DNA from: Prochlorococcus sp. AG-402-B05
Lineage (GTDB): Bacteria > Cyanobacteriota > Cyanobacteriia > PCC-6307 > Cyanobiaceae
Length of the DNA: 64,000 bases
Direction of reading: 5' to 3'
NCBI GenBank assembly: GCA_003279635.1
Contig: QCHK01000001.1
Span: forward strand, 69,697 to 133,696
Positions 45,110-63,679 of this stretch are shown here, piece by piece. Within the stretch, counting starts at the first letter, position 1; each line of letters begins with the position of its first letter. A model generated the notes under the pieces. That model saw only the letters and a program-made list of their open reading frames with translations. It made no database searches and was not told where the DNA came from. Made by a program: the position numbers and the translations under genes.

Positions 45110-45718
45110 ATGCCAGGTGAAGCTCTAACTACTGCTCAGCAAGAATTATATGACTGGCTTGTCAATTTTATTGATGATCAACATCATAGTCCTTCCATAA
45201 GGCAGATGATGCAAGCGATGGGGCTAAGATCTCCAGCACCAATACAAAGCAGATTAAGACATTTACAAGAAAAAGGTTGGATAAAATGGCAAGAAGGTCA
45301 GGCAAGAACACTTCAATTGATAGAAGAAAGTATATCTGGTGTTCCTGTTATGGGTTCAATAGCTGCAGGAGGATTAGTGGAGACTTTTGATGATGTACAG
45401 GAAACTCTGGACTTGAATTCAGTTCTTCAATTAAAAGGACTTTTTGCTTTGACAGTAAATGGAGATTCTATGATTGATTCTTATATTGCAGATGGAGATA
45501 TGGTCTTGATGGAGCCTGTTAATGACCCTTCTCGTCTTAGGAATGGAACTGTTGTTAGTGCAATGGTCCCAGGATTAGGAACTACTTTGAAACATTTCTT
45601 TCGGATTGGAAGCTTAGTTCGTTTAGAAGCAGCTAACAAAAATTATAAACCTATAGAAATCGATGCTGAACAAGTCCATATTCAAGGGAAATTAGCCGCT
45701 GTATGGAGACAAACCTAA
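45110..45718 (+). CDS. lexA: LexA repressor (SOS regulator)
   Basis: The 202-residue protein has an N-terminal winged-helix domain (residues 1-70, SPSIRQMMQAMGLRSPAPIQSRL) and an S24 self-cleavage domain. The Ala86-Gly87 cleavage pair, Ser120 and Lys161 are present, so the protein should be cleavable, unlike some cyanobacterial LexA proteins. No in-frame start exists upstream because of a TAA at 45098. It is the last clear core gene before the insertion hotspot. Confidence 0.92.
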   Translation: MPGEALTTAQQELYDWLVNFIDDQHHSPSIRQMMQAMGLRSPAPIQSRLRHLQEKGWIKWQEGQARTLQLIEESISGVPVMGSIAAGGLVETFDDVQETLDLNSVLQLKGLFALTVNGDSMIDSYIADGDMVLMEPVNDPSRLRNGTVVSAMVPGLGTTLKHFFRIGSLVRLEAANKNYKPIEIDAEQVHIQGKLAAVWRQT

Positions 45719-47825: not shown

Positions 47826-48281
47826 TCAAGTGAGACCTATTCCCCTTGCCATAAGTGTTGCCAAAAAGGGAATAGACGCAAAACCAACAAGTTCAATATT
47901 TATTATCACCCTTAACCTAGAAACCAATTTACTAGTGACATTAGGCAATTCACCTTTACTTAGGGGCAAGGCCCACAAAACATAAGTAACTGTGGGATAA
48001 AGCGATAATGTTCCTACCAAGCCAAAAGTAACGATCTTTGTCCAAAATATAGGATTTTGTGTATAAAACTCAGAACCTTGCCCAAACTTGATAACTCTAT
48101 AAATCCCACTAACTAAAAGAGCTATTCCAGCAATGCCATAAATAATATCTGCGATAACCATCGATATAGCATCTTTTCGACTTGGATCAGCTTTTAATGA
48201 GGTCCGTTCATAAATCAATGCACCAAAACAAAGCATAAAACTTAGATAATGAACGTAGGCAACCAAGGCATTTGTAATCAC
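47826..48281 (-). CDS. DUF2214 family membrane protein
   Basis: The 151-residue protein has four hydrophobic segments, opens with NALVAYVHYLSFM, and has the interior IADIIYGIAGIALLVSGIYRVIKFG. These patterns match DUF2214, a family common in cyanobacteria and proteobacteria with possible haem or quinone ligands (conserved histidine early on). It is intact within an otherwise decayed region, so it is either core or still-selected cargo of the older insertion. Confidence 0.78.
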   Translation of the reverse strand: MITNALVAYVHYLSFMLCFGALIYERTSLKADPSRKDAISMVIADIIYGIAGIALLVSGIYRVIKFGQGSEFYTQNPIFWTKIVTFGLVGTLSLYPTVTYVLWALPLSKGELPNVTSKLVSRLRVIINIELVGFASIPFLATLMARGIGLT

Positions 48282-49618: not shown

Positions 49619-49792
49619 CTAACGGGTAGCAGGGGGGGTGGGGCTCTTTTGCCAATTATTTCTCATGGCTTCCATGTCTGGAAGCTCGTGTGCATCATCC
49701 ATGAATTGCGACTAGCGATCTCCATAATCAGCCCTAACTTCATTCATTAATCTTGCTAGTGCTCGGCTGTTGTGTGGATCGTGAATATTCAT
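49619..49792 (-). pseudogene. Broken small gene downstream of the old integrase
   Basis: An ATG at 49792 overlaps the integrase stop (ATGA). The frame starts MNIHDPHNSRALARLMNEV, meets TAG at 49712-49714 after 26 codons, then continues in the same frame (SQFMDDAHELPDMEAM) to a TAG at 49619. The coding-like text on both sides of the stop suggests one nonsense mutation in a 57-codon gene. Confidence 0.45.
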
Positions 49793-51060
49793 AAAGTCAC
49801 CTCTACTCCTTTATTGAATTTTTTTCTTTCTTGCTTCAAGGTTTCTTGGTCTATCCATTGTCCATAGTGCCTCTGGTGAGTTGTGTTTGTATGCCCCATT
49901 GATGCGGCTGCACTCCTTACAGATAAGTGATTAGTTGAATCAGCATGGCTACGAAAAGCCCAGCCGTGTCTCAAGGAATATGGAGTTAAATTTGGATCTA
50001 CTTTTTTCAATTCTTGCCAGCAATCTGTTCTTTCAAGTAACTGAGCAAATGCAGCTCCAACATCTTGAAAGTGATCTTTATCTCCTTTACTTATCATGTC
50101 TATTTTAGATTTAACTGCATAAGGTAATTTCACAGCTCCAGTAGAAAAATCTTTTAAAAAGTTATAAGCTTCGCCCTTCTTTCTGCCTTTGCAATCCAGT
50201 CCAATTGCAAGTCTTGGTTTTCTATTTTCTCTACTCCTTAAATTCTGTTTAACCTTCGAGCCCACATACAATTCATTTCCATCAGTTTATAACACAGCAA
50301 GCTCAGCTAATCGAAGTCCGAAGTAACCAATTAACCCATAAGCGGGCCTAAGTTCATATAACTTTTTCTCCTTTAACTTATCTAACAGCCATGAGAATTG
50401 TTCTGGCTTTACAGGTGGAGTTGCTTCAATTTGCTCGCTAAATTTTTTCAGTCCAATTAATTCTTGAACTATTTCTGAATCAAGCGACAACCATTTCATA
50501 TCTAACCCTTGCCTATTAACAGCCCATTCAAGGAAAGCCGCTATATCTCCTAAAGCTCTCTTCCTACCCTGACCGCCAGCGGGCATCTTTTCAAAATATC
50601 TTTCTGAATACCTTTTATATAGTTCTTTTGAATCTCGTGGTTTTGGTAGAGACTCTTTTGCTTACACCATCTTTTTGATTCGGCTGGTTGTATCTCTAAG
50701 TGTTGTAGTTCTTCTATCACTTTTAGTTTTTAAGTATTCATCAGCCAGCCAATTCCATTCAACATCTGTTGAATTTTTTCCAATGTCATCTTGTTTTTTA
50801 TAAAGCTCAAAAGCATTCCTTAGAGATAACTTTCTCTCTGCCATCAAGTCATGAATGTCCCCAACGGTATCTTGAATTTTTCTCTTGTTATCTTTCTTCC
50901 ACTCAAGAGGAACAGTCACGCTGGAGCGTGGATTCTTGCTTCCCTTGCCTTTATTGATGCGGTGAGTTAGCTCAACTTTTCCTGATTTCTGAGTAATAGA
51001 AAAACCAATATGACAATCCTCTTTAAGGTTTTGCCGCAGATTTGTTACCCATTTGTCCAT
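49789..51060 (-). pseudogene. Tyrosine recombinase pseudogene of the older element
   Basis: One continuous minus-strand frame from ATG 51060 aligns along its length with the intact integrase at 62043-63329. Shared landmarks are SDRRTTTLRD, PAGGQGRKR, LRPAYGLIGYFGLRLAEL, YSLRHGWAFRSH and HYGQWID with the catalytic tyrosine. Only two in-frame TAA codons interrupt it, at 50662-50664 and 50287-50289; there is no frameshift. It lies divergent from the truncated tRNA-Ala, 156 bases away, just as the intact integrase lies beside the intact tRNA. Confidence 0.88.
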
Positions 51061-51106
51061 AAAACCTGTCGCCTGTTAGAAAGAGCTTGCCGCAGATTTG
51101 CCGCAG
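51031..51106. repeat. TTGCCGCAG repeats beside the old integrase
   Basis: Exact copies of TTGCCGCAG occur at 51031-51039 (inside the integrase 5' end), 51087-51095 and 51098-51106. The last two are spaced by 11 bases. Their position, one in the gene start and a tandem pair before the tRNA, mirrors the TGGCGCATA set of the intact element. Confidence 0.6.
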
Positions 51107-51216
51107 TATCCACCGCACATTGGGTATGTCTGAGTGTATTTGGGTATATTTTAGTGGTGAAGTATAATGATTACGTTGCTTGAGGTTGATTGCAATCACT
51201 GTCATCTCAACGATTT

Positions 51217-51255
51217 GGGGCCATAGCTCAGCTGGTAGAGCACCTGCATGGCATG
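51217..51255 (+). other. Truncated tRNA-Ala, left attachment site
   Basis: These 39 bases are identical to the first 39 bases of the intact tRNA-Ala(GGC) at 63465, ending just after the anticodon. A single mismatch and four further matching bases follow, and then the sequences diverge. The 3' half is absent, so no functional tRNA is made here. It marks the left junction of the element. Confidence 0.9.
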
Positions 51256-51319
51256 AAGGGCATTATTCTTCTGTGATCGATTGATATAACAGGGTTTAGA
51301 TAGCACAACAAAACGTAAA

Positions 51320-51340
51320 TGGCGCACACCGTGGCGCATA
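51320..51340. repeat. Left-end tandem 12-bp-spaced repeat pair
   Basis: TGGCGCACA at 51320 and TGGCGCATA at 51332 are spaced by exactly 12 bases. They lie 64 bases inside the left junction and match the pair at the right end. They are candidate arm-type integrase binding sites. Confidence 0.65.
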
Positions 51341-51418
51341 TTTGATATTACTTTGAGTTTGCTTTGATCTGTTGTGATAACTAGCTTATCCCTTTTTTAT
51401 TGTTTATAGAAACTAGAC

Positions 51419-51444
51419 AAAAAAAGAGCCACCAAAGGCAGCTC
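51419..51444 (-). terminator. Outward-facing intrinsic terminator
   Basis: On the minus strand an 8-pair stem (two G-T pairs) with a TTT loop is followed by seven T. It would stop transcripts running leftward out of the element. A decayed version, AAAAAGAGCC, survives near 46602 in the older copy. The rest of the 51256-51591 gap shows no gene. Confidence 0.5.
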
Positions 51445-51591
51445 CCACATCGTAAAATCGAATCTAGTTAAGAGGTCATTTTTAATTGAAATTACTATTA
51501 TTTTAAACTACTTTTGTTATTGCTTTGGTTGCTTATATGGTTAATCAGTTTTGCAAACTCACGCTAAATAGCAACGCCTCGAAAATCAAAA

Positions 51592-51780
51592 ATGACTAAA
51601 GTCATTCACTCTGATTTTTTAACTGTCGCAGAAGCAATGACTTCCGCCTTTTCAGTAATAGAAAAGAATCAATCTTGGTATCTAATGCCTTCTTTGGTTC
51701 CTGAGTTGGCACTTTGTTTTCACATGCTCCAGAGGGAATTGAATCTACATTGCATCAAGCAAGAATATGAAAAAAGCTAA
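51592..51780 (+). CDS. Small element left-end protein (62 aa)
   Basis: The protein starts MTKVIHSDFLTVAEAMTSAF and has no recognisable domain. Its 3' end overlaps the next gene by 14 bases, so the two are coupled. A decayed copy of both genes at 46.77-47.27 kb shows that the pair belongs to this element type and was under selection. Function unknown. Confidence 0.7.
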   Translation: MTKVIHSDFLTVAEAMTSAFSVIEKNQSWYLMPSLVPELALCFHMLQRELNLHCIKQEYEKS

Positions 51781-52129
51781 TAAACAAGAGATGGAATTAA
51801 GAGCAGGTTTTGCTGCTGATTTGCTTGCTCAAGGTCATAGTTGCACCGTAGTAACGACCCAAGTGACCGAAGAGTATGAATTAAGCAGAAGGCAGGCTCG
51901 GAGAATCACAGCCAAGGCAATGGACTTGATTGTTCAAGACTTTGAAGAGATCAATCTTGAACGGCCACAAATGGTGGCAAAGCTAATCGTAAATCTGGAG
52001 CAAGCAATGCAAAAAGGACTGATCAATAATCAATCAAGTGGCGTTGCTGCCTGTGCAAGACAAATAATATCGCTTGCTGGATTAGCAGCCGATAGCAAAT
52101 ACAACTCCAGACCTAAAAGAACTCTCTAA
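51767..52129 (+). CDS. Element left-end protein with HTH-like segment (120 aa)
   Basis: Residues about 12-50 (AADLLAQGHS, then YELSRRQARRITAKAMDLI) look like a helix-turn-helix with a long following helix. The remainder is helical and ends in a basic SRPKRTL tail. The layout recalls DNA-binding regulators or small terminase subunits, but that is only resemblance. It is coupled to the 62-residue gene and has a decayed paralogue at 46948-47272. Confidence 0.7.
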   Translation: MKKANKQEMELRAGFAADLLAQGHSCTVVTTQVTEEYELSRRQARRITAKAMDLIVQDFEEINLERPQMVAKLIVNLEQAMQKGLINNQSSGVAACARQIISLAGLAADSKYNSRPKRTL

Positions 52130-52284
52130 GCATTAGGAATTGACCAGAAGCAACATTATAAAAACGATGCATCTAGCAATAATTAACAACCTATTGATAA
52201 AAATTGACTCTTTGAAAGCCAACTAAGGATTAGGTTGGCAATATAGATTTACTAGATGGCATTTAATTAAAGCGATAACAGGCC

Positions 52285-55008
52285 ATGCCTAGACCTACTT
52301 ACTGGGATTTTGAATCTCCTAATCAAGGTGAAAAAGGAACTACTCTTACTGGGTACCTAGAAGGCAGGTTTTCAAACCCTTGGGCTCCTTCAACTATTTA
52401 TATTGCATCTTTAAAAAATTATCCTGACTTCATAAAAATAGGTTTTTGCCAAGTAAGAAATAGACAAAGAAGATTTAGCGATTCTGAGTATGGAGAAATT
52501 CTTTTTGATCTTTGTGAGGATAAAGAACTTGTTCCTGAAGATATACCAAGAGCAGAAGCATATATATGTGAAAAATATTTATTTTCATTATTAATGCATG
52601 AAAAAGAATTTGAACAAATTAATGATTTAAGGAAGAAACATTGGTCTGGTTACACAGAAACATTTAAGGTGCCAAAAGTAAAGAAAAAGTGGTCACCAAT
52701 TAAAGGTTATTTAAAATATGGAATTAATGGTTTGGTATTTAATGAAATAAGCTTTGATAGAGAAAAATTTATTGAAAGAATTAGATCAGAGATAAAGAAT
52801 ACGCTTTTAAATGGGGATAAAGGTTGGGAGAAAATGCTAGATCAAATAGTCATTTTAGATAAAGATAAATCTTTATATCTAAAAAGAAAAAGATTTCATC
52901 CTATCAATGTATATAAAGAAAAGAGTACAATAATATACGAGCTTGATGATGAAGAAAGAAGATTAGAAATAGAATCTTATGACATGTGGAATGAATTATT
53001 TGGGATTGAATCCGATATAGAAGAAGCTAGAAATCTAATGACTAAATTGTGGAATTTGATTACATATAATGAAACATTTAATGAAATAGATATTAACAAT
53101 GGCGATAGACTACTTAATAAGATCAATGCAATCAAATTTAATATTAAAAGAATCAAAGAAATATCGAATAAAATTCTAATTGAAAAAGATAAATTGATTA
53201 GCGAAATTATCTCAATAGAGAAAGAAAGAAGAGGATTAAAAATGTCATATGAAGATTGGAAAGATATAGCTTATTCTGATGAGAATGAAATAATAATTAA
53301 AGAAAAATCCGATTCTAAGCAAGTCAGTCCTTACTATGATCCCAAATGGTTATTAGAAAAGATAAAACAAGAAGATGTTGATCAAAATAATAGTATTGAA
53401 ATAGAAACCCCGTATGAACTAGTTGAAAAAGAAGAAAGATATTACTCAAAAGATTTAGAAAAGGGTTTTGATAAAAATGTACAAAATATCGATAATGACA
53501 AATGGTTAGCTGAAAAAATAAAATATTTTAAAGAAAATAAAAAATATAATAATGATTTAGAAGAGAAGGGATTTCCAGAGCCGGATGCTGACGAGTTAAG
53601 GGAACAAGAGGAAAGAGAAGAGGAAGATGAAAGGCTAAGAAATGTGCCAGGCTTTTCTTGGTCTGATTGGCCAGTAAGAAGTAAAGAATTTAGTGACACC
53701 TATATCGATGCGGGTAATTACTGGAATATGGAAGGTGTCTTTGAAGATGCAGTTGGAGAGGCAGAACAGATAGTTTTGCAGCGAGCCGAAGAGGCAGCAG
53801 AACAATTTTACGAAGAGCAAGCAGAAGAGGAAGCTGAGAGAAATGCTCAGCTCTGGGCAGAGGAAGAATACCAAGATTATTTAGAGGACTTAAAGATGGA
53901 AAAAGCAGCAGAAAAAGAAAAATGTTATTTATATGAATTAAATAAAAAAGAAAAAGATTTTAGTTTTGATAGTCCTTTTTATGATCCAAGCTGGTTACTA
54001 GAAAAGATCAATCAAGAAGATGCTAATCAGAATAACAATATTGATATACAAAGTCCGTATGAATTATTTGAGAAAGAAAGAGTTCAAGAACTAAACGAAG
54101 AACAAATTAAAACAATTAATAATAGTAATAAATCTAATACGAATGCTGAGACTAATTCTCAGCAAAGAAGGCCGCCTAAGGTTACTTCAGGCAAAACAGA
54201 CAAAATAAAAAATATTGAAGTAGAAATCAATACTGATTATACAAGCAAGAAAGTTAAAGATGAAGCAATCAATTCTGAAAATGACAATATAGATTGGCTC
54301 CTAAGAAAAGAGGATTTGATAAAATCGCAAAACCATAAATATACTGCATTACAACTTTATCACCCAACAAAATCTGAACTTCATGATTCTAATGATAAAA
54401 GAATTTTAGCTTTTAAAGATCATTATAAAGATGATCATTACCAGGCATTATGTTTTTACTCAATAGCCTTTAAAATGGTAATCCCTAGAAATACTGAAAT
54501 ACTACTAACCTGTGCCCCAGGGAGCAAAGCCTATAGAGATGGATCTCTAAATAAACTTATAAGAATTTTAAGTGGAGGACCAATAAAAGATGGCTCAAAT
54601 CTATTAAAAACGATAAGAGACAGGGGCAAGAAATCACTTAAACATAAATATACCAACGCTGAATTATATGAAACTATTGAAATCAATAAAATTGAGATTT
54701 CAGCAAACTGCAGAATATTAATATTAGATGACGTTATTACTAGTGGACAGACATTTAATGTTTGCAAAAAGATTCTAATAGATTCAGGTTATAAAAATCA
54801 GATTACTTGCCTAGGGATTGGCATGACAGATTGGACTTCATCTCAAAAAACTCTGACTGATGAAATCAATATAAACAATTTCCCTAATCCTTTAAGCCCT
54901 ATAAATATAATTCCTGAAAATATCGATAAAGATGAACCCTTGATTCCAAATGAAATCAAAAATAGTGTTAAGGCAGCCGCTAGAATATTATTTAATTTAT
55001 TTAAATAA
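52285..55008 (+). CDS. Large fusion: GIY-YIG-like (T5orf172) nuclease domain plus phosphoribosyltransferase domain
   Basis: The 907-residue protein has an N-terminal GIY-YIG-superfamily segment at about 35-130 (IYIASLKNYPDFIKIGF, an acidic PRAEAYICEKYLF helix). Long charged coiled-coil stretches follow, with two copies of a 40-residue module starting at 348 and 563. A C-terminal phosphoribosyltransferase-like domain at about 735-870 has the PRPP motif DDVITSGQT at 815-823. It overlaps the DprA-like gene by one base (TAATG). PRTase plus DprA is the make-up of ShosTA; the nuclease-like head and coils are extra. Very AT-rich. Confidence 0.78.
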   Translation: MPRPTYWDFESPNQGEKGTTLTGYLEGRFSNPWAPSTIYIASLKNYPDFIKIGFCQVRNRQRRFSDSEYGEILFDLCEDKELVPEDIPRAEAYICEKYLFSLLMHEKEFEQINDLRKKHWSGYTETFKVPKVKKKWSPIKGYLKYGINGLVFNEISFDREKFIERIRSEIKNTLLNGDKGWEKMLDQIVILDKDKSLYLKRKRFHPINVYKEKSTIIYELDDEERRLEIESYDMWNELFGIESDIEEARNLMTKLWNLITYNETFNEIDINNGDRLLNKINAIKFNIKRIKEISNKILIEKDKLISEIISIEKERRGLKMSYEDWKDIAYSDENEIIIKEKSDSKQVSPYYDPKWLLEKIKQEDVDQNNSIEIETPYELVEKEERYYSKDLEKGFDKNVQNIDNDKWLAEKIKYFKENKKYNNDLEEKGFPEPDADELREQEEREEEDERLRNVPGFSWSDWPVRSKEFSDTYIDAGNYWNMEGVFEDAVGEAEQIVLQRAEEAAEQFYEEQAEEEAERNAQLWAEEEYQDYLEDLKMEKAAEKEKCYLYELNKKEKDFSFDSPFYDPSWLLEKINQEDANQNNNIDIQSPYELFEKERVQELNEEQIKTINNSNKSNTNAETNSQQRRPPKVTSGKTDKIKNIEVEINTDYTSKKVKDEAINSENDNIDWLLRKEDLIKSQNHKYTALQLYHPTKSELHDSNDKRILAFKDHYKDDHYQALCFYSIAFKMVIPRNTEILLTCAPGSKAYRDGSLNKLIRILSGGPIKDGSNLLKTIRDRGKKSLKHKYTNAELYETIEINKIEISANCRILILDDVITSGQTFNVCKKILIDSGYKNQITCLGIGMTDWTSSQKTLTDEININNFPNPLSPINIIPENIDKDEPLIPNEIKNSVKAAARILFNLFK

Positions 55009-55943
55009 TGATTGAAAAAGTTTCCGATATATTAACTTTATTAGAAATAAAAGGTATTGGGCCGGCAAAAGCTAAGCAAGTAATTGATAATGCCAAATCA
55101 ATTCATAGAGATGATTTTATTTTCAACTTGAAAGAATATTATAATTGTACTGTAACTAAATCAGAATGGATAACAATTAGTAATCATATCAAGGATACAC
55201 TAGAAAGAACAGTTAATTCTGGAATAAATTGTTTACCTTTCTATGATAAAAACTACCCAAAAATATTAAATAATCTTTCTGATCCACCTTTAATACTATT
55301 TGTAAAAGGAGAAGTTTCCTCGATAAATACTTCTTTCCCTTTTGCAATAGTAGGGACGAGAAATCCATCAAAGTTCACTATTGATAAAGGGGCAGAAGTT
55401 TGTGAGATTATCTCAGCTAGATGTGATTGCATCGTTAGTGGTCTAGCGCTTGGATGCGACTCGATAGCACATAAATCAGCCATTAATTTTGGCATCCCAA
55501 CTATTGCTGTTTTGCCCAATGGCTTAGATACTATTTATCCAAAAGAAAACATAAATCTAGCGAATAATATTCTTGATAAAGGAGGTGCTCTTTTATCTGA
55601 ATACCTTATAGGGATTAAGCCACAAAGACATCAATTTGTGGCGAGAGACCGTATACAAGCAGGATTATCAAATGCAGGTTTTTTATTGGAAAGTAGTAAA
55701 AAAGGAGGCTCAATGCATTGTATGCGTAAATTAAAATCTTTAAATCGGACTATAGGTTCTTTAGTCCCTCCGAAATCTCAAACTAACGACATGAACTGGT
55801 CTGGCAATCAAGAACTATTAAAAGATCATTCATGTATAAGCATTGACACAGAATCAGAAAATAATCCTAATAGTAGTTCAATAAATGATTTATTTATGAA
55901 TAAAAATACTATTGAAAATTTTAATCAAACTACACTTTTCTAA
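55008..55943 (+). CDS. DprA/Smf-like protein, probable partner of the PRTase fusion
   Basis: This 311-residue protein has a helix-hairpin-helix at residues 12-27 and a DprA Rossmann domain: VGTR 115-118, SGLALG 144-149, a GLDTIYPKEN stretch, RDRIQAGLS 213-221 and GGSM 233-236. The usual GRxVFAVPG end of chromosomal DprA is replaced by NRTIGSLVPP. A serine- and asparagine-rich tail follows. It is translationally coupled to the upstream gene, so it is more likely an antitoxin or sensor (ShosA-like) than the competence DprA. Confidence 0.82.
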   Translation: MIEKVSDILTLLEIKGIGPAKAKQVIDNAKSIHRDDFIFNLKEYYNCTVTKSEWITISNHIKDTLERTVNSGINCLPFYDKNYPKILNNLSDPPLILFVKGEVSSINTSFPFAIVGTRNPSKFTIDKGAEVCEIISARCDCIVSGLALGCDSIAHKSAINFGIPTIAVLPNGLDTIYPKENINLANNILDKGGALLSEYLIGIKPQRHQFVARDRIQAGLSNAGFLLESSKKGGSMHCMRKLKSLNRTIGSLVPPKSQTNDMNWSGNQELLKDHSCISIDTESENNPNSSSINDLFMNKNTIENFNQTTLF

Positions 55944-55984
55944 TAAGATATTTAATGTTAATAATAAGGTATAGAGATTTTAAA

Positions 55985-56830
55985 ATGAATTATCTAATTA
56001 AATATAAATACCTTGCTTTTGCCTCATTAATTTCATTTATCCCATTTCATCCGGTTTATGGATATTCCCAAAAAATAAATACTAAATATCAAGTTTTAAA
56101 TAAGTATTATTTTAATAGAATTGTAAATAGTATTAGCCAGCAAAAAACAGCTGAAGAATATCTTGATGAAGCCAACAATATAATCTTTGATGACTTTTCA
56201 GCACTCTTAACAAAGAACAAAAAAACTAGAGAAGAATTTATTCAACTAGTCAATAAATCTCTAAAGATAAAGGAAACTGCTAGAGCATATCTTTATTTAG
56301 GGCATGCTAATCATATGACCTTAGACTCAATTGGATACAAAAAGGCAATTGATCATTATGAAAAAGCTCTTGAATTAAATCCTGAATACGTTAAAGCTTT
56401 TGTTGCATTAGGCATGTCACATAGAAACAATAAAAACTTTAAAGAAACAATTACTAATTTAGAGAAAGCTATAAACCTTAATTATGAGAATGAATTAATT
56501 TTCAATCAAATTGCAGAGGCCAAATATCAACTAGGAGATCATAAAGGTGCCCTTATTGCCTTGAAAAAAGCAATAAAAATCAATCCCGATAATTCAGTTA
56601 ACTACTTTCAAAGTGCAATCTCAAAACACATCTTAGGTGATTATAAGAGCTCGATTAATGATTATTCAAAAGCAATAAAATTAAACTCAGGAAGTGCAAA
56701 TTATTATTATTTTAGAGCATTTGCATATTTAGACCAAAAGGATATTGAAAATGGTTGTCAAGATTTAGACAATGCTTCAAAGCTAGGAGCTAATACTTCT
56801 AAAGAGATGGAAAAATACTGCTTAAATTAA
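55985..56830 (+). CDS. Exported tetratricopeptide-repeat protein
   Basis: From ATG 55985 a signal peptide (hydrophobic 8-25, ending PVYGYS) precedes at least four TPR units. Examples are KAIDHYEKALELNPEYVKAF, GALIALKKAIKINPDNSVNY and SSINDYSKAIKLNSGSANYY. The protein is about 281 residues. The frame is open to 55955, but the later start restores the signal peptide. It follows the DprA-like gene by 41 bases and may be cargo of the element. It probably mediates protein-protein contact outside the cytoplasm. Confidence 0.75.
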   Translation: MNYLIKYKYLAFASLISFIPFHPVYGYSQKINTKYQVLNKYYFNRIVNSISQQKTAEEYLDEANNIIFDDFSALLTKNKKTREEFIQLVNKSLKIKETARAYLYLGHANHMTLDSIGYKKAIDHYEKALELNPEYVKAFVALGMSHRNNKNFKETITNLEKAINLNYENELIFNQIAEAKYQLGDHKGALIALKKAIKINPDNSVNYFQSAISKHILGDYKSSINDYSKAIKLNSGSANYYYFRAFAYLDQKDIENGCQDLDNASKLGANTSKEMEKYCLN

Positions 56831-57127
56831 ATCAAATAAAAAATGTTCATTAATCAGCTGTCAAAAAGGACTATCCCGCCGCTATTCCCGCCAAATAGAA
56901 ATAGCTCCCGAAAAGAAAACTATTGATAACCAAGGCTAAATAGAAAATGACCCTCTGAATAGCAGGCAGGGAGTCAAGAAAGACCTCACGTGTCTCACCT
57001 TTTCCCCAACACTTACTACATATGTATAGGTATCTATTATTTATTTATTTTTTAAAAAAGAGATGAGACATGAGGTAAATATCCCATCTCCCTTTTTATG
57101 ACTACCTTTTGGTTGCCTCAGGCTACC
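56831..57127. other. Convergent intergenic region with inverted repeats
   Basis: No gene is seen. ACATGAGGTA at 57068-57077 is inverted as TACCTCATGT at 57124-57133, and an imperfect GAGATG/CATCTC hairpin between them precedes a short T-run. The segment separates rightward cargo from the leftward replication operon and probably terminates both. Confidence 0.45.
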
Positions 57128-58297
57128 TCATGTTTTTCTCCAATATCTCTTCTTTCCAGCGTCTCCTTGAGTTTGATGTTTATCTTTTCGGTAGCCCAAA
57201 GATTGCAGGCACTCAGATGCTTTTTTTAAGTCAAGGTCTTTGATCCTTTCTTTGTCTCTTAGTCCTGAATCTATTAACGCTTCTGTGGTTGTAAATGGAG
57301 CGAGTCTAAATCCGACCCAATCAGCTAATGCTTCCATAAATGGATGTTCCGCTTGAAAGTCTTTATTCCTCCTATTGGATTCATCTTGCAGCTCTTTTTT
57401 TAGATAAGGTTTGCGGCCATTTCTATAAGCAAGAATCGCAGCTTTAAGAATCCTCTTTCGATCTTGTTTCACTTTTTCGGTATCAATTTCTTTCTTGACT
57501 GGAATAACCCAGAACCTTCGATGACTTGCAGATGGATCTGAAAGAAAGTCGCAACGATTAGAAGTTGCAACCAAAATCGAAGGTCTTGGAAACTTTCCAG
57601 TGCCTCTTGCATAAGGTCTTTTGTAAGTGTCGGTAGCACTTGAGAAAACAGCTTTCAAAGAAGCTTGAGCTTTTGCATTTGTAATTCCATCAAGTTCTGC
57701 AAGCTCATAAATCAAACATTGATTGATTGCCATGAACAGGTCTTGTTGCTTGCTTTGCCATGTATCGCAGAACCAATCCTCGGTAGCAAGTTCTTTCCAA
57801 AAAGTAGATTTTCGGATTCCTTCTTTCCCTGTTAATACAAGGCAAGTGTCAAACTTGCACCCATTGTGAAATGTCCTATTAACTAACCCAATAACGGTAG
57901 TAGCGAGCATTGCATCATAAAGAGGATCACTTGTTCCTAAGTAATCCGTTGCGACCTGATCTAGTTCAATCGGTTGAATTGAATCATCATGTTCAATTCT
58001 CTTAAGCTCATCAACTACTGGGTGGTAGGTGTTCTTTTGTGCGGCTGTTTGTAAGGCATCAATCGCATGGCCTTTATTAATCTTCCATCCTCTTTCAGAG
58101 AGATAAACATAGAAGTTATCTATGAATGAAGTTTGGATTGGTTGCCTATTCAATTCAACCTCTCCACTCATCAAGTTGTACTCAAGTTGAGTTGTGTAAT
58201 CGACTGAAAGCATTTGGCTTAATACTCCAGCACTAAGATTCTGCTCCCTTGGTTCCTTCCCTTCTTTAGTGATCCAGCCCTTTTCGATTTCAATCAT
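57128..58297 (-). CDS. VapE-like replication helicase (virulence-associated E family)
   Basis: The 389-residue ATPase has Walker A GKEGIRKST at 157-165, with arginine where glycine is more common, and a Walker B-like LIYELAELD at 195-203. A sensor-like VATSNRCDFL and the RRFWVIPV segment typical of VapE proteins also occur. Such helicases drive replication of phage satellites. It overlaps the primase gene by one base (TAATG) and ends the leftward operon. Confidence 0.85.
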   Translation of the reverse strand: MIEIEKGWITKEGKEPREQNLSAGVLSQMLSVDYTTQLEYNLMSGEVELNRQPIQTSFIDNFYVYLSERGWKINKGHAIDALQTAAQKNTYHPVVDELKRIEHDDSIQPIELDQVATDYLGTSDPLYDAMLATTVIGLVNRTFHNGCKFDTCLVLTGKEGIRKSTFWKELATEDWFCDTWQSKQQDLFMAINQCLIYELAELDGITNAKAQASLKAVFSSATDTYKRPYARGTGKFPRPSILVATSNRCDFLSDPSASHRRFWVIPVKKEIDTEKVKQDRKRILKAAILAYRNGRKPYLKKELQDESNRRNKDFQAEHPFMEALADWVGFRLAPFTTTEALIDSGLRDKERIKDLDLKKASECLQSLGYRKDKHQTQGDAGKKRYWRKT

Positions 58298-59355
58298 TAG
58301 TCAACCCCCGCTAGTTTTCTTTTGATTGATTGGATCTTTGATGGCCTATGAATTTTGAAGGTTGAGAATGTTCCAGTGCAGTCTTCACCAGAGCCGCAAT
58401 ACGCCCATTGAGTGCCAGAAATAATCTCACCTAATTCCATACTCGGAGGATGAAAAGTATTCCCTCGGTGGCAAAGAATTGTATCTCCATCTTTATGCGC
58501 TCGGCAGTCGTCATCTATGTCCCTACCGCAAATAGGACAAGGTCGAGCGGCATCCCAATCACCATTGCTACTGGGTGATTTGCTCTTCGTTGATGCTGTT
58601 GGCTTTTGATTAGCCAGCTTTAAAACAAAGTTCCACTCCTCATCACTTGGTGGCTTTATCTCTTCGGGGCCATAACCTCTAGGCCAAAAATAATTACCAT
58701 TATTGTCTGGATGTTTACCAGTAATTAAAACTTGTCGGTCATTAGTGAGAAAAACTTCTAGTGCTTCTCCCTTTTTAATTACATCTCCATTTGCATCTTT
58801 TACAGCTTCTTTAGTAACAATTTTTCCTTGAAATTGACCATGAGGAAGTTTTGCGATTTGCGCTTTTGTTGGTTCATATAACACCTTGAATCTCCAAGGA
58901 TCATCATCTCGATGGACTTGGAAAGAATCCACAAAATTAAGACCTAAATCAGCTGCGTAATTGAAAGCAGTTTCACCATCAATGTCTTTGCATAAAAGAT
59001 GAAGTCCTGTTTTGACTCCAATGCCTGTTGCTTCAGGCAAGGCAAGAATCGTTTTGATTGGGAACTTTTTGTCATTCCAATCCTTCAAGTAATAACCATT
59101 TAATCCAATTGGTACTTTCCCTTTGCATGGAAGGAAATCCCAAAAAGATTCCTTTAGGTACAAAAGGTACGCTTGTCGGCAAATTTCATTGTGATTTGAC
59201 CCTCTATGCGCCCTATTATGCGCCATTTGGTACTCTTCTGAATAATTGAATCCAGTAATACAAATAGGTTGTTGCGATCTGACTCCCTGCCTTGTATGCA
59301 GGAGGTCGGCTACTATCGGGTTGTACGCCCCCAATGGCCTCTTCTTGGAGGTCAT
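58297..59355 (-). CDS. Prim-pol type DNA primase with zinc ribbon
   Basis: The 352-residue protein has an N-terminal bifunctional primase-polymerase-like domain (LPCKGKVPIGLNG, KTGLHLLCKDIDG, FQVHRDDDPWRFKVLY). A zinc-binding CPICGRDIDDDC plus CHRG segment lies near residue 270. With VapE it forms a self-contained replication module. A second possible start is Met44 at 59226, which falls exactly in a pair of TGGCGCATA-type repeats. Confidence 0.8.
   Translation of the reverse strand: MTSKKRPLGAYNPIVADLLHTRQGVRSQQPICITGFNYSEEYQMAHNRAHRGSNHNEICRQAYLLYLKESFWDFLPCKGKVPIGLNGYYLKDWNDKKFPIKTILALPEATGIGVKTGLHLLCKDIDGETAFNYAADLGLNFVDSFQVHRDDDPWRFKVLYEPTKAQIAKLPHGQFQGKIVTKEAVKDANGDVIKKGEALEVFLTNDRQVLITGKHPDNNGNYFWPRGYGPEEIKPPSDEEWNFVLKLANQKPTASTKSKSPSSNGDWDAARPCPICGRDIDDDCRAHKDGDTILCHRGNTFHPPSMELGEIISGTQWAYCGSGEDCTGTFSTFKIHRPSKIQSIKRKLAGVD
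59205..59225. repeat. Internal copy of the 12-bp-spaced repeat pair
   Basis: On the minus strand TGGCGCATA is followed 12 bases later by GGGCGCATA. The pair lies within the 5' part of the primase gene and is inverted relative to the end copies. It may bind the element's recombinase or regulator, or may reflect the MAHNRAH coding sequence by chance. Confidence 0.45.
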
Positions 59356-59357
59356 TT

Positions 59358-59597
59358 TTATGCCTCCTCTATAAATTTTTTAGCTCTTCGATTTAATTTC
59401 CCTCGATGGTTAATTTGCCTCATGCACTCAGGCACGTTCCATCGAATTGGAGAATTTGGATGTGCGCCGTAGAAGTAATCGATTCCAGATGCTAAGAATC
59501 CACCTTGATCATCTCGATAACGCATCAAGGTTTGAGTGGATACTCCACACTGCCTTGCAGCTTCTGGAGTTCTCTCCAGCCGAGTTTTAGTTGTCAC
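59358..59597 (-). CDS. MerR-like helix-turn-helix protein, candidate excisionase
   Basis: The 79-residue protein opens at GTG 59597. Residues 9-30 (TPEAARQCGVSTQTLMRYRDD) form a MerR/Xis-type helix-turn-helix, followed by a winged segment with GIDYFYGAHPNSPIRWN. Small proteins of this type direct excision or regulate integrases. It lies 2 bases upstream of the primase gene in the same operon. Confidence 0.75.
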   Translation of the reverse strand: MTTKTRLERTPEAARQCGVSTQTLMRYRDDQGGFLASGIDYFYGAHPNSPIRWNVPECMRQINHRGKLNRRAKKFIEEA

Positions 59598-59610
59598 TAT
59601 CCGAGAGGGG

Positions 59611-59814
59611 TTATCTCGCTTTTTTTGCTATGGCTTTTAAATGATTAGGAACCCAAGTTTCCTGAGCATCAATCTCGCCTGATTTGTCAGCCTCAATAAC
59701 TTTTTCCACTAAAAGATCAGCGTTCTTTCTGTCATGCAAAGACTGATGAGCCTTCTTTGGCAGGGCAAAGGATTGATCGTTTACTTGGAAATACTTATTA
59801 GCTTTTTTAGTCAT
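59611..59814 (-). CDS. Small hypothetical element protein (67 aa)
   Basis: The basic 67-residue protein starts MTKKANKYFQVNDQSFALPK, is mainly helical and lacks a recognised motif. It is the first clear gene of the leftward operon, 13 bases before the HTH gene. A regulatory role is possible from position alone. Confidence 0.65.
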   Translation of the reverse strand: MTKKANKYFQVNDQSFALPKKAHQSLHDRKNADLLVEKVIEADKSGEIDAQETWVPNHLKAIAKKAR

Positions 59815-59985
59815 AGCGAAGCAAGGGGTTTACTTGGATCAATCCACCTCTGAGAGATAGTCCCCTAAACAACACTGGCGATGGTGATGCTTTGCTGTCC
59901 CCTGATCTCTTTGCGATCTATCAGGCTCGGCATTTAAAAAGTAAGGTAGCTGTGGTATTAAGTAATGACAAGTGGTTTACCGAAC

Positions 59986-60099
59986 TTAAAAAGGAATTTC
60001 TTCTGGCTTTGGTATTAGCTCAACTTTTGTTCCAGCTTCTTCCCTAGCTGATTCCATATCTTCAAAAGGTTTTGCTCTTCCCTCCAAAAAACAATTCAA
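59986..60099 (-). CDS. Possible small protein (37 aa) upstream of the replication operon
   Basis: A short frame reads LEGRAKPFEDMESAREEAG, then VELIPKPEEIPF and stop. Starts could be TTG 60099 (37 residues) or ATG 60057 (23 residues). The text looks coding-like and acidic. The rest of the gap 59815-60184 probably carries the promoters for the leftward operon and the rightward HNH pair; I see no other gene. Confidence 0.35.
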   Translation of the reverse strand: MNCFLEGRAKPFEDMESAREEAGTKVELIPKPEEIPF

Positions 60100-60184
60100 T
60101 TCAGATTCTTTTTTTTAATAGAAACAAACCAGATAAACAAATACAAAAAAGGCTAGTAAAATCAGAGCAAAGAAGTCCTTTTGA

Positions 60185-61189
60185 ATGACATTCTTATCAG
60201 ATCAAAAAGCTACAGAGTTGTTTAGCGTCCTCCCTGCTGATATTCAAGCCAAATTAATTCAAAGAGGAGGAAATTATGGTATTCCCGGATCTGATCTGAT
60301 TAGAAAAATACCAGAGCACTTACTAAATAACTCTCAAGATATAGAAAGCTTTCTAAGCATAAAAGATGTATCACATAAGATTGCCAGATCAAAAGGAGGC
60401 AGCCCTAATAATTTTGATAATTGGATTTTTGAAGATTCAAGTGTAAACAGAGCAAGAGGAAACTCTCCAATGAGCTTAAGTGAAGAAGTATATGCTGATA
60501 TGGATAATAAACTTGATGCGTATTTAATTGATTCATTAACTCCAGACCCTATTCTTAAAAATGCCGCAAAGATAGAAGATATAAAAACAATTATCTCTAC
60601 TGAAAATTTAGAGGAAACGAATAGATTTTTTAATTCTAATTTAGAAGAAGTAGCTTCTGCTTCCATATCAATGGGATATGTCGTAGGAAGAACAACAAGA
60701 CAATCCATGAGCTTTTTAAGAGATATCGATTGGAAAAGATTTAGGAAGGAAAGTCAATACAGAAATTGCATAGTAAATAATGCGTTAAAAAGATTTTTAG
60801 AGGATGGTTGGGAAGACTTATCAAAATCAATAGTGATGGGTTTCTTGATAGTGGGCTTCCCTCCATTACAATTTCTTCTTGTTGGGCAAGGAGTTATTGG
60901 ATTGGTTACGCTTGGAGTTAGATGGCTTTTATCTAAAAATATTTTCCCATCTAAAGTTGGTCTAGCTTTTGCAAGAATAGGAGACTCACTTGAAATAACA
61001 TCAAGTTTTTTAAGGAAATGTTTTAAGTTCGCCGAGAAAATTGTTGATTCAATCGTATCTATGGTTATTAGAATTGCTAAAAGTTTTGGTGAGTATATTA
61101 AAGAAATTGCACAATCAATATACGATTGGATAATGAACTTTATAAACCCTGATCAGCAACCTAAACTGATAAGCGTTAAAGCATATTAA
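60185..61189 (+). CDS. Degenerate HNH-like protein with membrane segment
   Basis: The 334-residue protein has an HNH-type stretch at about residues 60-95 (KDVSHKIARSKGGSPNNFDN and SVNRARG) without the usual cysteine pairs. A strongly hydrophobic segment lies at about 218-250, then an amphipathic helical C-terminus. A nuclease-like head on a membrane helix is unusual and fits an abortive-infection effector, but that is inference. The next gene starts 5 bases after its stop. Confidence 0.65.
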   Translation: MTFLSDQKATELFSVLPADIQAKLIQRGGNYGIPGSDLIRKIPEHLLNNSQDIESFLSIKDVSHKIARSKGGSPNNFDNWIFEDSSVNRARGNSPMSLSEEVYADMDNKLDAYLIDSLTPDPILKNAAKIEDIKTIISTENLEETNRFFNSNLEEVASASISMGYVVGRTTRQSMSFLRDIDWKRFRKESQYRNCIVNNALKRFLEDGWEDLSKSIVMGFLIVGFPPLQFLLVGQGVIGLVTLGVRWLLSKNIFPSKVGLAFARIGDSLEITSSFLRKCFKFAEKIVDSIVSMVIRIAKSFGEYIKEIAQSIYDWIMNFINPDQQPKLISVKAY

Positions 61190-61194
61190 TTGCA

Positions 61195-61995
61195 ATGAAA
61201 AAATTCGATAACAAAGAAATAGAATCAAGGGCGGAACTATTTATATCAGAAAGTGCAGAGAAAAAATCTAATGATAAACTAATTAATTTAGGAGCAGAAA
61301 TATTAAAATCAGAAAGTAATAAATTTTTAAAAAAAAGGGGAATTACAACAGCCTTTAAAATTATTAGAAATGATATAACAATAAATAGAATGAGAGAAGC
61401 CGCCGTAAACATAGGTATTCTTAAACAATTTAATAGATACAAAATAAATAAAGAAATATTTGAACAAGCAACAAAATACATCAATGAAAATTCTAATAGT
61501 AATTTAAAGTATTTTTCACACCTTGATTATATGCAATGTTATTATAATTTCACAATAAATCATACCTTGGGCTTTGAATATAATATAGGTAGTCGTGAGC
61601 TTGCTGGTATTTTACTTTTGTACAGGAAATTTCATACAGATTCTCAAGAACAAACAATAAATATTCCTAAATTAACAAAAGAAATATTAACAAAAGAATA
61701 CAAGAAATGTTTAAGAGGATGGGATTCTGAGAAGCAAGACTATCTGGACTTCTCAGTTTTTCAAATCAGTAATAATTTAATAGATAAGAGTCTTGATCAA
61801 TATTTTTATCTCTATAAAGAAGATTATCCAATTTGTTATAATGGATTTTTATTATATCAATTATTCAGCAGACATCCATATCCAGATGAACTCAATCAAA
61901 AAAATATAGATTTAATAGTAAAAGATTTAATCACCAGCGCAGTATCAAAAGATCATTTAACAATTATTACTAACTTTTTACCAAGAAGAAATTAG
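61195..61995 (+). CDS. Hypothetical partner protein (266 aa)
   Basis: This mostly helical, charged and very AT-rich protein starts MKKFDNKEIESRAELFISES. I recognise no domain and no signal peptide. It is 5 bases downstream of the HNH-like gene and clearly co-transcribed, so it may be an immunity, sensor or effector partner. Function unknown. Confidence 0.65.
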   Translation: MKKFDNKEIESRAELFISESAEKKSNDKLINLGAEILKSESNKFLKKRGITTAFKIIRNDITINRMREAAVNIGILKQFNRYKINKEIFEQATKYINENSNSNLKYFSHLDYMQCYYNFTINHTLGFEYNIGSRELAGILLLYRKFHTDSQEQTINIPKLTKEILTKEYKKCLRGWDSEKQDYLDFSVFQISNNLIDKSLDQYFYLYKEDYPICYNGFLLYQLFSRHPYPDELNQKNIDLIVKDLITSAVSKDHLTIITNFLPRRN

Positions 61996-62042
61996 ATTGC
62001 AAGCAAATTAATGAGGTTGTGATTTAGTACACATAGCAATTT

Positions 62043-63329
62043 TCATACTGCCATCTGCTGACCTTTTTTGAACTTTGCAGCGGCTTCTTCAAGTCCAGCT
62101 TCATCGACCCATCTGCCGTAATGCTTCAAATGTGTTTGTGGATCGTGCCCCATAAAAGCACTCGCATCTCTAACTGTTAGAGGATTTTCTGACTCTTTAT
62201 GAGCCCTCCACGCGAAGCCATGCCTCAAGGAATAAACCTTTAATCCCTGAGTTCTTTTTTCCATTGATTGCCATAACCAATAACGCTGCAAAAGTTGTCT
62301 AAGTGCATCCCCAATTTCTTTGAATTCGTCTTTTTCTTTTGCTCTTTGAATGGCTCTACTAATAGCTAATGGAAACTTGACTATCCCAGAATCATATTGA
62401 GCAATTAAGCGTTGCCCTTCATTAGGAAGCGATGGCAAATCCATAGCAATAACTCTTCTGGGAGCTGCTTTTGGTTTATGCAAAGTTTGCATATTCCTTT
62501 TGGTTTGTCCTACATAAAGCTTCCCATCATCAACCGTTAGCTCTCCTAACTCAGACGGCCTCAGACCAAACAAACCAATAAGACCAACGCAAAGTCTTAA
62601 CCCATGCTTTTCATTAGACGCAAGACCTTCTAAGAGCATCTCTAGGTCTTGTCCTTTTACTGGGACTGTTAATGCTTCTGCGCTGGTTCTAGTAGAACTT
62701 CCAATCAAACTTCTTTTAAATTCTTTATCAGGTGGAAGCCATCTTTGAGGTGCTCCAGCTTTCTTAACTGCGAAATCTAAAAAGGCTTCTACATCACCAA
62801 GATTTCTTTTTCTGCCTTGTCCTCCAGCTGGGCAATTATCGAAGTGCATTTCGGCAAATCTCTTCATCAGAGTTCTTCCATCTCTTGGCTTTGGATTAGC
62901 TGAAATAGTTTCTAAAACTCTTCTCATTCTTGTCTTCAAATCTCTAAGCGTTGTACCTCTGCGATCACTTCTGGACTCTAGAAAAGCTTCAATTATGTTT
63001 TCCCAGTTAGTAACGCTTGGAGCTTGATCCTTCGCGACAGGTTCAAGCATGAACTTTGCAGCTTCTTTAAGAGATAGGTTTCTTTCATCAATAAGTCTTT
63101 TTAGATCAGCAACTGCGGTGATAATCTTGCTTTGGTTTCGGCTGGTCCAGTCATAAGGAAGGAAGACTGCTGACCGAGGATTTTTCATTCCAAGTCCATC
63201 TTGGAAACGATAAGTCACTTGGGTTTTATTCATTCCCCTTATTTCTCTGCCACGAACTGACCATCCATCTCCATTCTCGAGTTTGATGGTTTGGCGCATA
63301 ATTTTGTGCCATTCTTGCCGAGATCCCAT
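62043..63329 (-). CDS. int: Tyrosine recombinase (integrase) of the tRNA-Ala element
   Basis: The 428-residue integrase has an N-terminal arm/core-binding region and a C-terminal catalytic domain. The box I arginine lies in GLFGLRPSEL. Box II is YSLRHG, with tyrosine where histidine is usual and Arg368. His394 lies in MGH and the nucleophile Tyr403 in HYGRWV. The alternative start Met11 lies at 63299, inside a TGGCGCATA repeat. It is divergent from the intact tRNA-Ala, 135 bases away. By position it integrates the element at that tRNA. Confidence 0.92.
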   Translation of the reverse strand: MGSRQEWHKIMRQTIKLENGDGWSVRGREIRGMNKTQVTYRFQDGLGMKNPRSAVFLPYDWTSRNQSKIITAVADLKRLIDERNLSLKEAAKFMLEPVAKDQAPSVTNWENIIEAFLESRSDRRGTTLRDLKTRMRRVLETISANPKPRDGRTLMKRFAEMHFDNCPAGGQGRKRNLGDVEAFLDFAVKKAGAPQRWLPPDKEFKRSLIGSSTRTSAEALTVPVKGQDLEMLLEGLASNEKHGLRLCVGLIGLFGLRPSELGELTVDDGKLYVGQTKRNMQTLHKPKAAPRRVIAMDLPSLPNEGQRLIAQYDSGIVKFPLAISRAIQRAKEKDEFKEIGDALRQLLQRYWLWQSMEKRTQGLKVYSLRHGFAWRAHKESENPLTVRDASAFMGHDPQTHLKHYGRWVDEAGLEEAAAKFKKGQQMAV

Positions 63330-63368
63330 GTGGTTACTAGCTCCCTATGGCGCATATCATGGCGCATA
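63292..63368. repeat. Right-end repeat cluster TGGCGCATA
   Basis: Exact copies of TGGCGCATA occur at 63292-63300 (integrase 5' end), 63348-63356 and 63360-63368. The latter two are spaced by 12 bases. They lie between integrase and tRNA and match the left-end pair, as arm sites flanking an attachment core would. Confidence 0.7.
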
Positions 63369-63464
63369 AGTGCTTATTTAACCACTATCAAGTGCTATCA
63401 AGTAAACCAGCTGATTTTTCTAAATCTTCCAAACTGCTTGATATTACTGCCGTTTCACACACAT

Positions 63465-63537
63465 GGGGCCATAGCTCAGCTGGTAGAGCACCTGCATGGC
63501 ATGCAGGGGGTCAGCGGTTCGAGTCCGCTTGGCTCCA
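63465..63537 (+). tRNA. tRNA-Ala (GGC), right attachment site
   Basis: This is a full 73-base cloverleaf with acceptor GGGGCCA/TGGCTCC plus A, anticodon loop ATGGCAT (GGC) and a GGTTCGAGTCC T-loop. Its first 39 bases are repeated at 51217. The sequence upstream differs between the two copies. The 5' half and promoter region here therefore came with the element, while the 3' half is the original chromosomal part. Confidence 0.95.
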
Positions 63538-63610
63538 TTCTAAAAAGCATTGACCTTAATAGGTTTAGAACCTAGTTCTCAAAGGTCTTAAATCTCGTCT
63601 CAAATGAATT

Positions 63611-63629
63611 TAGTGCAAAATATAGTGCA
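63611..63629. repeat. TAGTGCA pair, 12-bp spacing, right of tRNA-Ala
   Basis: TAGTGCA occurs at 63611 and 63623, again 12 bases apart. It lies in the 140-base gap between the tRNA and the YdcF-type gene, which otherwise shows nothing. It may be a trace of another recombinase site or chance. Confidence 0.3.
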
Positions 63630-63679
63630 TCTTTAAATAAACAATTGTTTTAAGCTATTAATAACTATCTTTTTTTAAA

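Follow-up and report, generated by a model that had tools for sequence, protein, structure and literature searches.

The window, the whole stretch of 64,000 nucleotides (64 kb) from Prochlorococcus sp. AG-402-B05 that was analysed, holds a single complete tRNA-Ala(GGC) gene, as identified by ARAGORN. A second copy of the 5' half of this gene lies upstream, and the DNA between the two copies has the appearance of an integrative element, designated E2. The relic of an integrase, int1, lies to the left of E2 and is assigned to a presumed older element, E1. The features of the locus are the following:

45110-45718, plus strand: lexA, very likely the ancestral upstream neighbour of tRNA-Ala(GGC) (NCBIfam TIGR00498, 1.3e-52; sister loci).
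49789-51060, minus strand: int1, the integrase relic left by the presumed older element E1 and split into several ORFs (ORF list; two internal TAA).
51061-51215, plus strand: B-type upstream region of the left 5' half, with a putative promoter (TTGGGT 51140-51145, 17 bp, TATAAT 51163-51168).
51216-51260, plus strand: 5' tRNA fragment at the left junction (genome search and fragment comparison; anticodon loop ATGGCAT 51248-51254).
51248-63502, no strand: element E2, loop to loop, 12.2 kb (end repeats, tRNA copies and joined flanks).
51320-51352, plus strand: presumed left arm-type sites (TGGCGCA pair 51320-51338; TTGATATTACT 51342-51352).
52285-55943, plus strand: ShosT-like and ShosA-like gene pair, defence cargo (52285-55008 and 55008-55943; PADLOC 1.1e-11 and 6.8e-66).
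57128-58297, minus strand: VapE-like helicase (Pfam PF05272, 1.6e-54).
62043-63329, minus strand: int2, the tyrosine integrase of E2, unbroken and oriented away from the tRNA (PHROGs phrog_1 integrase, 1.8e-6; no internal stop).
63330-63463, plus strand: upstream region of the living tRNA, attributed to the element (TGGCGCA pair 63348-63366; TATCAAG twice at 63386-63402; TTGATATTACT 63438-63448).
63464-63538, plus strand: living tRNA-Ala(GGC), read as element 5' half plus resident 3' half (ARAGORN, genome search and flank joining; anticodon loop 63496-63502).

The fragment at 51216-51260 is identical to the first 45 bases of the tRNA at 44 of 45 positions, on the same strand and at a spacing of 12,248 bp. 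The sole mismatch is position 41, which leaves an identical run of 40 bases. When up to three mismatches are allowed, a 19-base string taken from the 5' end has exactly two occurrences in the 64 kb, both perfect, against 0.00 in shuffled sequences. The 135 bp upstream of each copy are unrelated (mutual score of 14, against a maximum of 26 over 600 shuffled pairs). These values confirm the original prediction that the duplicated part is the 5' half through the anticodon and that the DNA upstream of the two copies differs. A search of the genome, a draft of 62 contigs, with the tRNA returned one full-length copy, an 85% match on contig C4, the 5' copy at 51216-51260 and an 89% copy of the 3' half at C1:134162-134205, slightly past the window end. 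Just past the right edge of the window, at L035:1785-2509, a gene that resembles ElyC but scores under the curated cut-off precedes a decayed 3' tRNA fragment; the two are probably what is left of a 3'-type element on the opposite side of tRNA-Ala(GGC). Single-strand folding of the tRNA was uninformative, the minimum-energy fold differing from the cloverleaf.

When the flanks of E2 are joined in silico at the anticodon loop, the product is a tRNA identical to the living gene, placed behind the left-hand upstream DNA. The junction of the E2 circle, joined in the same way, contains no tRNA gene. The int2 gene is a complete ORF of 428 aa whose start lies 134 bp from the 5' end of the tRNA. Its product has no match in Pfam (E 0.001), NCBIfam (0.01) or PDB sequences (0.1) at those limits, and it is recognised as a tyrosine recombinase through the PHROGs integrase profile. 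The same order of integrase, arm and tRNA is present in genome G028, with 80% protein identity. The repeat TGGCGCA-N5-TGGCGCA occurs exactly twice in the window (51320 and 63348), inside each end of E2, with 0.00 expected. Likewise, TTGATATTACT without mismatch occurs exactly twice, at 51342 and 63438; with one mismatch there are five occurrences against 2.6 expected, which is not above chance. The paired sites inside both ends look like integrase arm sites that int2 would bind, and the matching repeats tie the left end to int2, which would catalyse the recombination of E2. The original prediction that the 5' half of the living tRNA and its upstream DNA are element-borne is supported at the level of sequence, and all 134 bp between int2 and the tRNA would be element DNA.

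The cargo of E2 comprises the ShosT/ShosA-like pair (phosphoribosyltransferase-like and DprA-like) and the VapE-like helicase gene, a satellite-like set. At 59205-59316, inside E2, a core-like CCTGCCTTGTATGCAGG (three mismatches) lies near an inverted TGGCGCAT-like pair; this is perhaps an internal attachment relic, or a chance occurrence in a coding region. On contig C22 (L128) of the same genome, two further integrases of the family stand beside the 3' end of tRNA-Arg(TCT), one of them by a fragment only. Searches with the integrase and with exact tRNA halves found no free attP and no packaged or phage-borne copy. The search of phage DNA gave 333 records and, among the ten listed, nine fall on annotated tRNA-Ala genes and one is unannotated.

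The surroundings of the tRNA in related bacteria bear on the origin of both upstream regions. A family-wide search matched the tRNA in 103 of 121 genomes; the best 30 of the 103 were read, 26 of which are outside the genus. In 16 of these 26 sister loci, a gap of 30-339 bp free of integrase separates the end of lexA from the tRNA, both genes being on one strand; two of the 16 (G128 and G087) have an integrase match downstream. The order lexA, divergent integrase relic, tRNA is found in 3/26 (G061, G046 and G142). The remaining seven have no lexA in the flank, and a divergent integrase lies upstream in two of them. In the window, 17.7 kb separate the tRNA from lexA. Since the two genes are adjacent without an integrase in so many sister loci, none of the 16 resembling either upstream region of the window, lexA followed by the tRNA is very likely the ancestral order. 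DNA similar to 63.33-63.46 kb, whose presence before the tRNA at an empty site would contradict supply by the element, was sought in these 16 integrase-free loci and matched in none.

A decayed native 5' half is present in G061, about 35 bp past the lexA match (24/40 matches, 0/1000 shuffles). None follows lexA in G046 or G142, the other two sister loci that have the relic after lexA, nor in any of the 16 loci tested in the genus. Before its tRNA, G046 retains little of the integrase beyond the first 75 codons, along with the arm. Within the genus, G007 was considered as a clean empty site and rejected. Its proximal upstream DNA fits neither type (scores of 17 and 18); without gaps it matches the 51.2-kb type at 13/60 positions (shuffled mean 16.2) and the window type at 17/60 (mean 16.7). 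For this reason, the lexA-adjacent sister loci serve as the empty-site comparison instead. The lexA flank of G007 aligns to the interval between lexA and the 5' fragment in G002, with 84% identity over 1.25 kb, until 165 bp before the tRNA, and a further match of 79 bp between the two genomes is mostly the tRNA half itself. The membrane-protein gene at 47826-48281 shifts relative to lexA and the tRNA among genomes: it is either co-oriented with them, downstream or upstream, or, as in the window, upstream and inverted.

The DNA at 51.06-51.22 kb was implied by the original prediction to be the original host upstream region, a view that the comparison weakens. This DNA adjoins the int1 relic, and none of the 16 sister loci without an upstream integrase matches it over 51.08-51.22 kb. 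G032 has a complete tRNA with the same B-type upstream DNA, and directly before it stands an unbroken gene with 91-93% identity to the two int1 pieces. Because of the int1 adjacency, the relative in G032 and the lack of sister matches, the region is probably the supply of an earlier element or a genus-level type. In the simplest history, E1 inserted first and E2 second, in tandem; the left end of E1 was not found.

The comparison within the genus covers 31 complete tRNA genes from 41 genomes, ten of which gave none; an inverted second tRNA-Ala copy in G004 is excluded, and locus L068 breaks off at position 66. Of the 31 genes, 29 have an upstream region of one of two mutually unrelated types, 18 being A/C (window included) and 11 B/D, and two genes have neither. 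An uninterrupted integrase lies directly upstream in only three of the 31 genes (the window, G028 and G032) and is absent in 28. Integrase sequence is present within about 0.5 kb upstream in 15 genes and is divergent in all 15. Displaced 5' fragments are of the B/D type in 17/19 cases, against 11/29 living genes (the 2/31 of neither type left out; Fisher p 0.0007), a comparison in which fragments of one genome are non-independent (four from G005, two from G015 and two from G029).

These counts leave room for a second reading of the older type, in which B/D would be the native host promoter of the genus, picked up by the int1 element, and a foreign promoter would come only with the A/C elements. 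The predominance of B/D among displaced fragments is in line with it, as are the four D-type genes that have no integrase match nearby and the TACAAT found 48 nt before the tRNA in G007. On the other hand, the lexA-adjacent sister loci match B in 0/16 cases, and int1 lies beside B, with its uninterrupted relative in G032. Its chances are put at a little under even.

A promoter probably lies within 63330-63463, judging from the position and conservation of this DNA. Among the genes of the A-prime and B groups that have lost the integrase, the last 80-160 bp before the tRNA remain at about 70-100% identity, and the sequence farther up falls to the level of unrelated pairs. The A-prime relatives of L039 are 82-98% identical over the last 120 bp and 5-75% beyond 160 bp; the B relatives of G032 without integrase (L054, L059 and L068) are 85-100% identical over the last 80 bp and 40-65% over the next 40. 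In the A relatives, identity is high through the integrase relic over the 400 bp read, with a dip at 81-120 bp in 3/6. Single bins of lower identity occur in L047 (A type), and the C type is mixed. Control pairs of different upstream types are 40-68% identical, 4/13 of them not aligning. This pattern fits a promoter kept during the decay of the element in A-prime and B and is non-discriminating in A. Furthermore, 11/11 B/D genes have TATAAT at exactly 47 nt upstream of the tRNA, a place where it stands in 0/18 A/C genes. Taken together, the relatives suggest that the swaps were repeated and that element-type upstream DNA outlasted the decay of the integrase.

A scan for the sigma-70 consensus found no promoter in 63300-63640 or in the left upstream region, and the consensus terminator scan was empty. 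The absence of a consensus promoter from 63300-63640 would agree with a 5' half that moved without a promoter, the living tRNA being read from a remote or antisense start. This is quite improbable: the gene upstream of the living tRNA is divergent, the A-prime and B genes without integrase keep their last 80-160 bp (the drop being unseen in A within 400 bp and mixed in C) and the TATAAT is at a constant distance in all B/D genes. The best extended -10 candidate of the living tRNA is TTGATATTACT. Because it recurs at the left end of E2, and 3'-type relatives have a motif like it downstream of their tRNA, it may be a site for the integrase instead of a promoter.

Displaced fragments of the tRNA in the genus are of two kinds, with the 5' fragments reaching to about positions 40-43 and the 3' fragments beginning at about 28-33. 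These limits define a shared segment centred on the anticodon loop and point to a crossover within about positions 32-40, spanning the loop, with the exact base expected inside this range. Where the original prediction placed the crossover in a 39-base core, the shared core is confirmed, at 40 identical bases, and the relatives narrow the interval within it. On contigs with a complete gene, the 5' fragments lie upstream on the same strand in 12/13 cases and the 3' fragments downstream on the same strand in 12/12. The exception among the 13 is a 5' fragment, G005:866274, which is inverted and downstream of its tRNA. These counts omit matches below about 30 bp (one in G002, upstream against the rule, and two in G004) and a weak downstream 3' match in G010; six more 5' and six more 3' fragments, on contigs without a complete gene, are uninformative on placement. 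The loci of G005 (L057, L058 and L086) hold three 5' fragments upstream, three 3' fragments downstream and the one inverted 5' fragment downstream. The sequences downstream of the tRNA (30 genes, L068 being cut) form families of their own. The two largest occur with both upstream types, six and five times with A/C and two and two times with B/D, so that each half of the gene appears to have undergone exchange independently of the other.

The copy at 51.2 kb could also be a plain duplication or decay product with no attachment junction, given that it is only 45 bp long and that short tRNA fragments can arise otherwise. This is very improbable, as the identity stops at the loop, a matching repeat pair lies just inside both ends of E2 and the fragments of the relatives are placed by type and side. 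An assembly artefact that joined repeat copies in the 62-contig draft is the least credible, the repeat being only 45 bp and G028 showing the same gene order.

The integrase family was placed on a tree of 91 rows that cover at least 330 residues, with at least two places counted twice (G299:C9 and G304:C75). Integrases beside the 3' end of a tRNA (class I) account for 39/91 rows, four of the 39 being beside a 3' fragment only. Those beside a displaced 3' fragment (class III) account for 33/91. Only 8/91 lie beside the 5' end of a complete tRNA (class II), all of them at tRNA-Ala(GGC), and 11/91 are unplaced, having no recognisable tRNA, in part because the library was limited to the tRNAs of the fetched loci. 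On the tree, the product of a quick search in which several long branches carry flags, class II requires three changes, at least two of them being demanded by the starred branches. The relative of int1, on a long branch, groups with class III integrases (support 93). Three class I integrases fall inside the int2 clade beside the class II integrase of L188 (support 98). The arm of L188 resembles those of the opposite-side L190 and L184, with scores of 35 and 29 (0/500 shuffles each), and scores 24 (0.018) against L187 and 12-16 against eight other class I integrases. From this likeness, a similar arm seems, in one part of the int2 clade, to have served at the one or the other side of the tRNA. 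The arm of the window has no match beyond chance (0.05-0.55) to three opposite-side arms. The near-palindromic loop, in which only the central base breaks CCTGCATGGCATGCAGG, was considered as the reason for 5' resupply only at tRNA-Ala(GGC). The idea is weakened to a guess because this tRNA hosts 49/80 placed rows of the family, and classes I and III both occur at Val, Arg and Thr tRNAs.

The preferred explanation, with a probability of about 0.88, is that E2 is an integrative element that recombines at the anticodon loop of tRNA-Ala(GGC), swapping promoter and 5' half, after an earlier E1, and that such swaps recur in relatives. The attachment-site arm next to the integrase would carry the tRNA 5' half and 134 bp of upstream DNA. 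Integration would leave the old 5' half and the old promoter at the far end, at 51.2 kb, and join the promoter and 5' half of E2 to the resident 3' half at 63.46 kb; excision would reverse the exchange. The tRNA that E2 entered would most likely have received its own 5' half from E1, the element of the int1 relic. The same type of swap would have recurred in relatives from both sides of the loop, the element-type upstream DNA staying after the integrase decayed. An extension of this reading, which we hold to be unlikely, takes the probably essential tRNA-Ala(GGC) as a running chimera, its promoter plus 5' half being traded by elements on one side of the loop and, independently, its 3' half plus trailer by elements on the other. 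The E2 arm site TTGATATTACT at 63438-63448 would overlap the tRNA start region, such that binding of the integrase would change tRNA-Ala output and couple translation to the state of the element.

Elements that restore the 3' half of a tRNA leave its promoter untouched. A reversed bacterial element that uses the tRNA 5' half was reportedly described by Zhao and Williams in 2002, and in E2 likewise the 5' half is duplicated and the integrase stands beside the 5' end of the tRNA. The tycheposons (Hackl and others, 2023) are said to contain satellite-like genes, as E2 does. Elements restoring the 5' half have to supply a working promoter; according to PMC8371274, this is seldom met in bacteria. 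E2 has the layout of an Islander tRNA island: a complete tRNA and a same-strand fragment bound an interval of 2-200 kb, the integrase is between them and the crossover is anticodon-centred (PMC4383910, as far as its available text goes). It differs from most of these islands in leaving a 5' fragment, the one at 51216 upstream of the tRNA at 63464; in the same available text, 3760 of 3919 islands leave a 3' fragment and 159 a 5' fragment. A thaumarchaeal survey reports that use of the 5' side is considerably less frequent, and that the archaeal pTN3-like integrases, like E2, have the tRNA 5' half as attB (PMC6563490). In pTN3-type suicidal integration, as given in the accessible portion of PMC8371274, the integrase gene is split by the att site into int(N) and int(C), whereas int2 is unsplit. 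Two features of the E2 locus, the numerous decayed copies that keep their upstream DNA and the use of the opposite side, are absent from the description of 5'-half users in the available part of PMC6563490. With the tycheposons, E2 shares the Prochlorococcus host, the tRNA at the border and the tyrosine recombinase (PMC10872708, available text). In tRNA-dependent lysogeny, according to the part of PMC10865867 that was available, the element must also restore an essential tRNA function, but it brings an entire tRNA and the shared stretch is about 10 bp; E2 shares 40 bp and has no tRNA in its circle junction, and the window contains one complete tRNA-Ala(GGC).

Resupply of the 5' part of a tRNA is, therefore, rare but known. 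Relative to the open-licence literature searched, what is apparently new is the repeated turnover of the promoter that persists after loss of the element, together with the two-sided exchange of one tRNA gene, part of which is perhaps already in print (the tycheposon founding paper, Williams 2002, or Zhao and Williams 2002). The presence of at least two origins of the 5' type within one integrase family is apparently also new, as read from the sequences compared. An apparently single-copy tRNA gene repeatedly gains upstream DNA from mobile elements, and this DNA outlives the element. Dozens of related loci let the promoter swap be read as an evolutionary process, and the cost and benefit of promoter replacement become testable. 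The same loci form a set for asking how an integrase family switches the side of the tRNA that it repairs.
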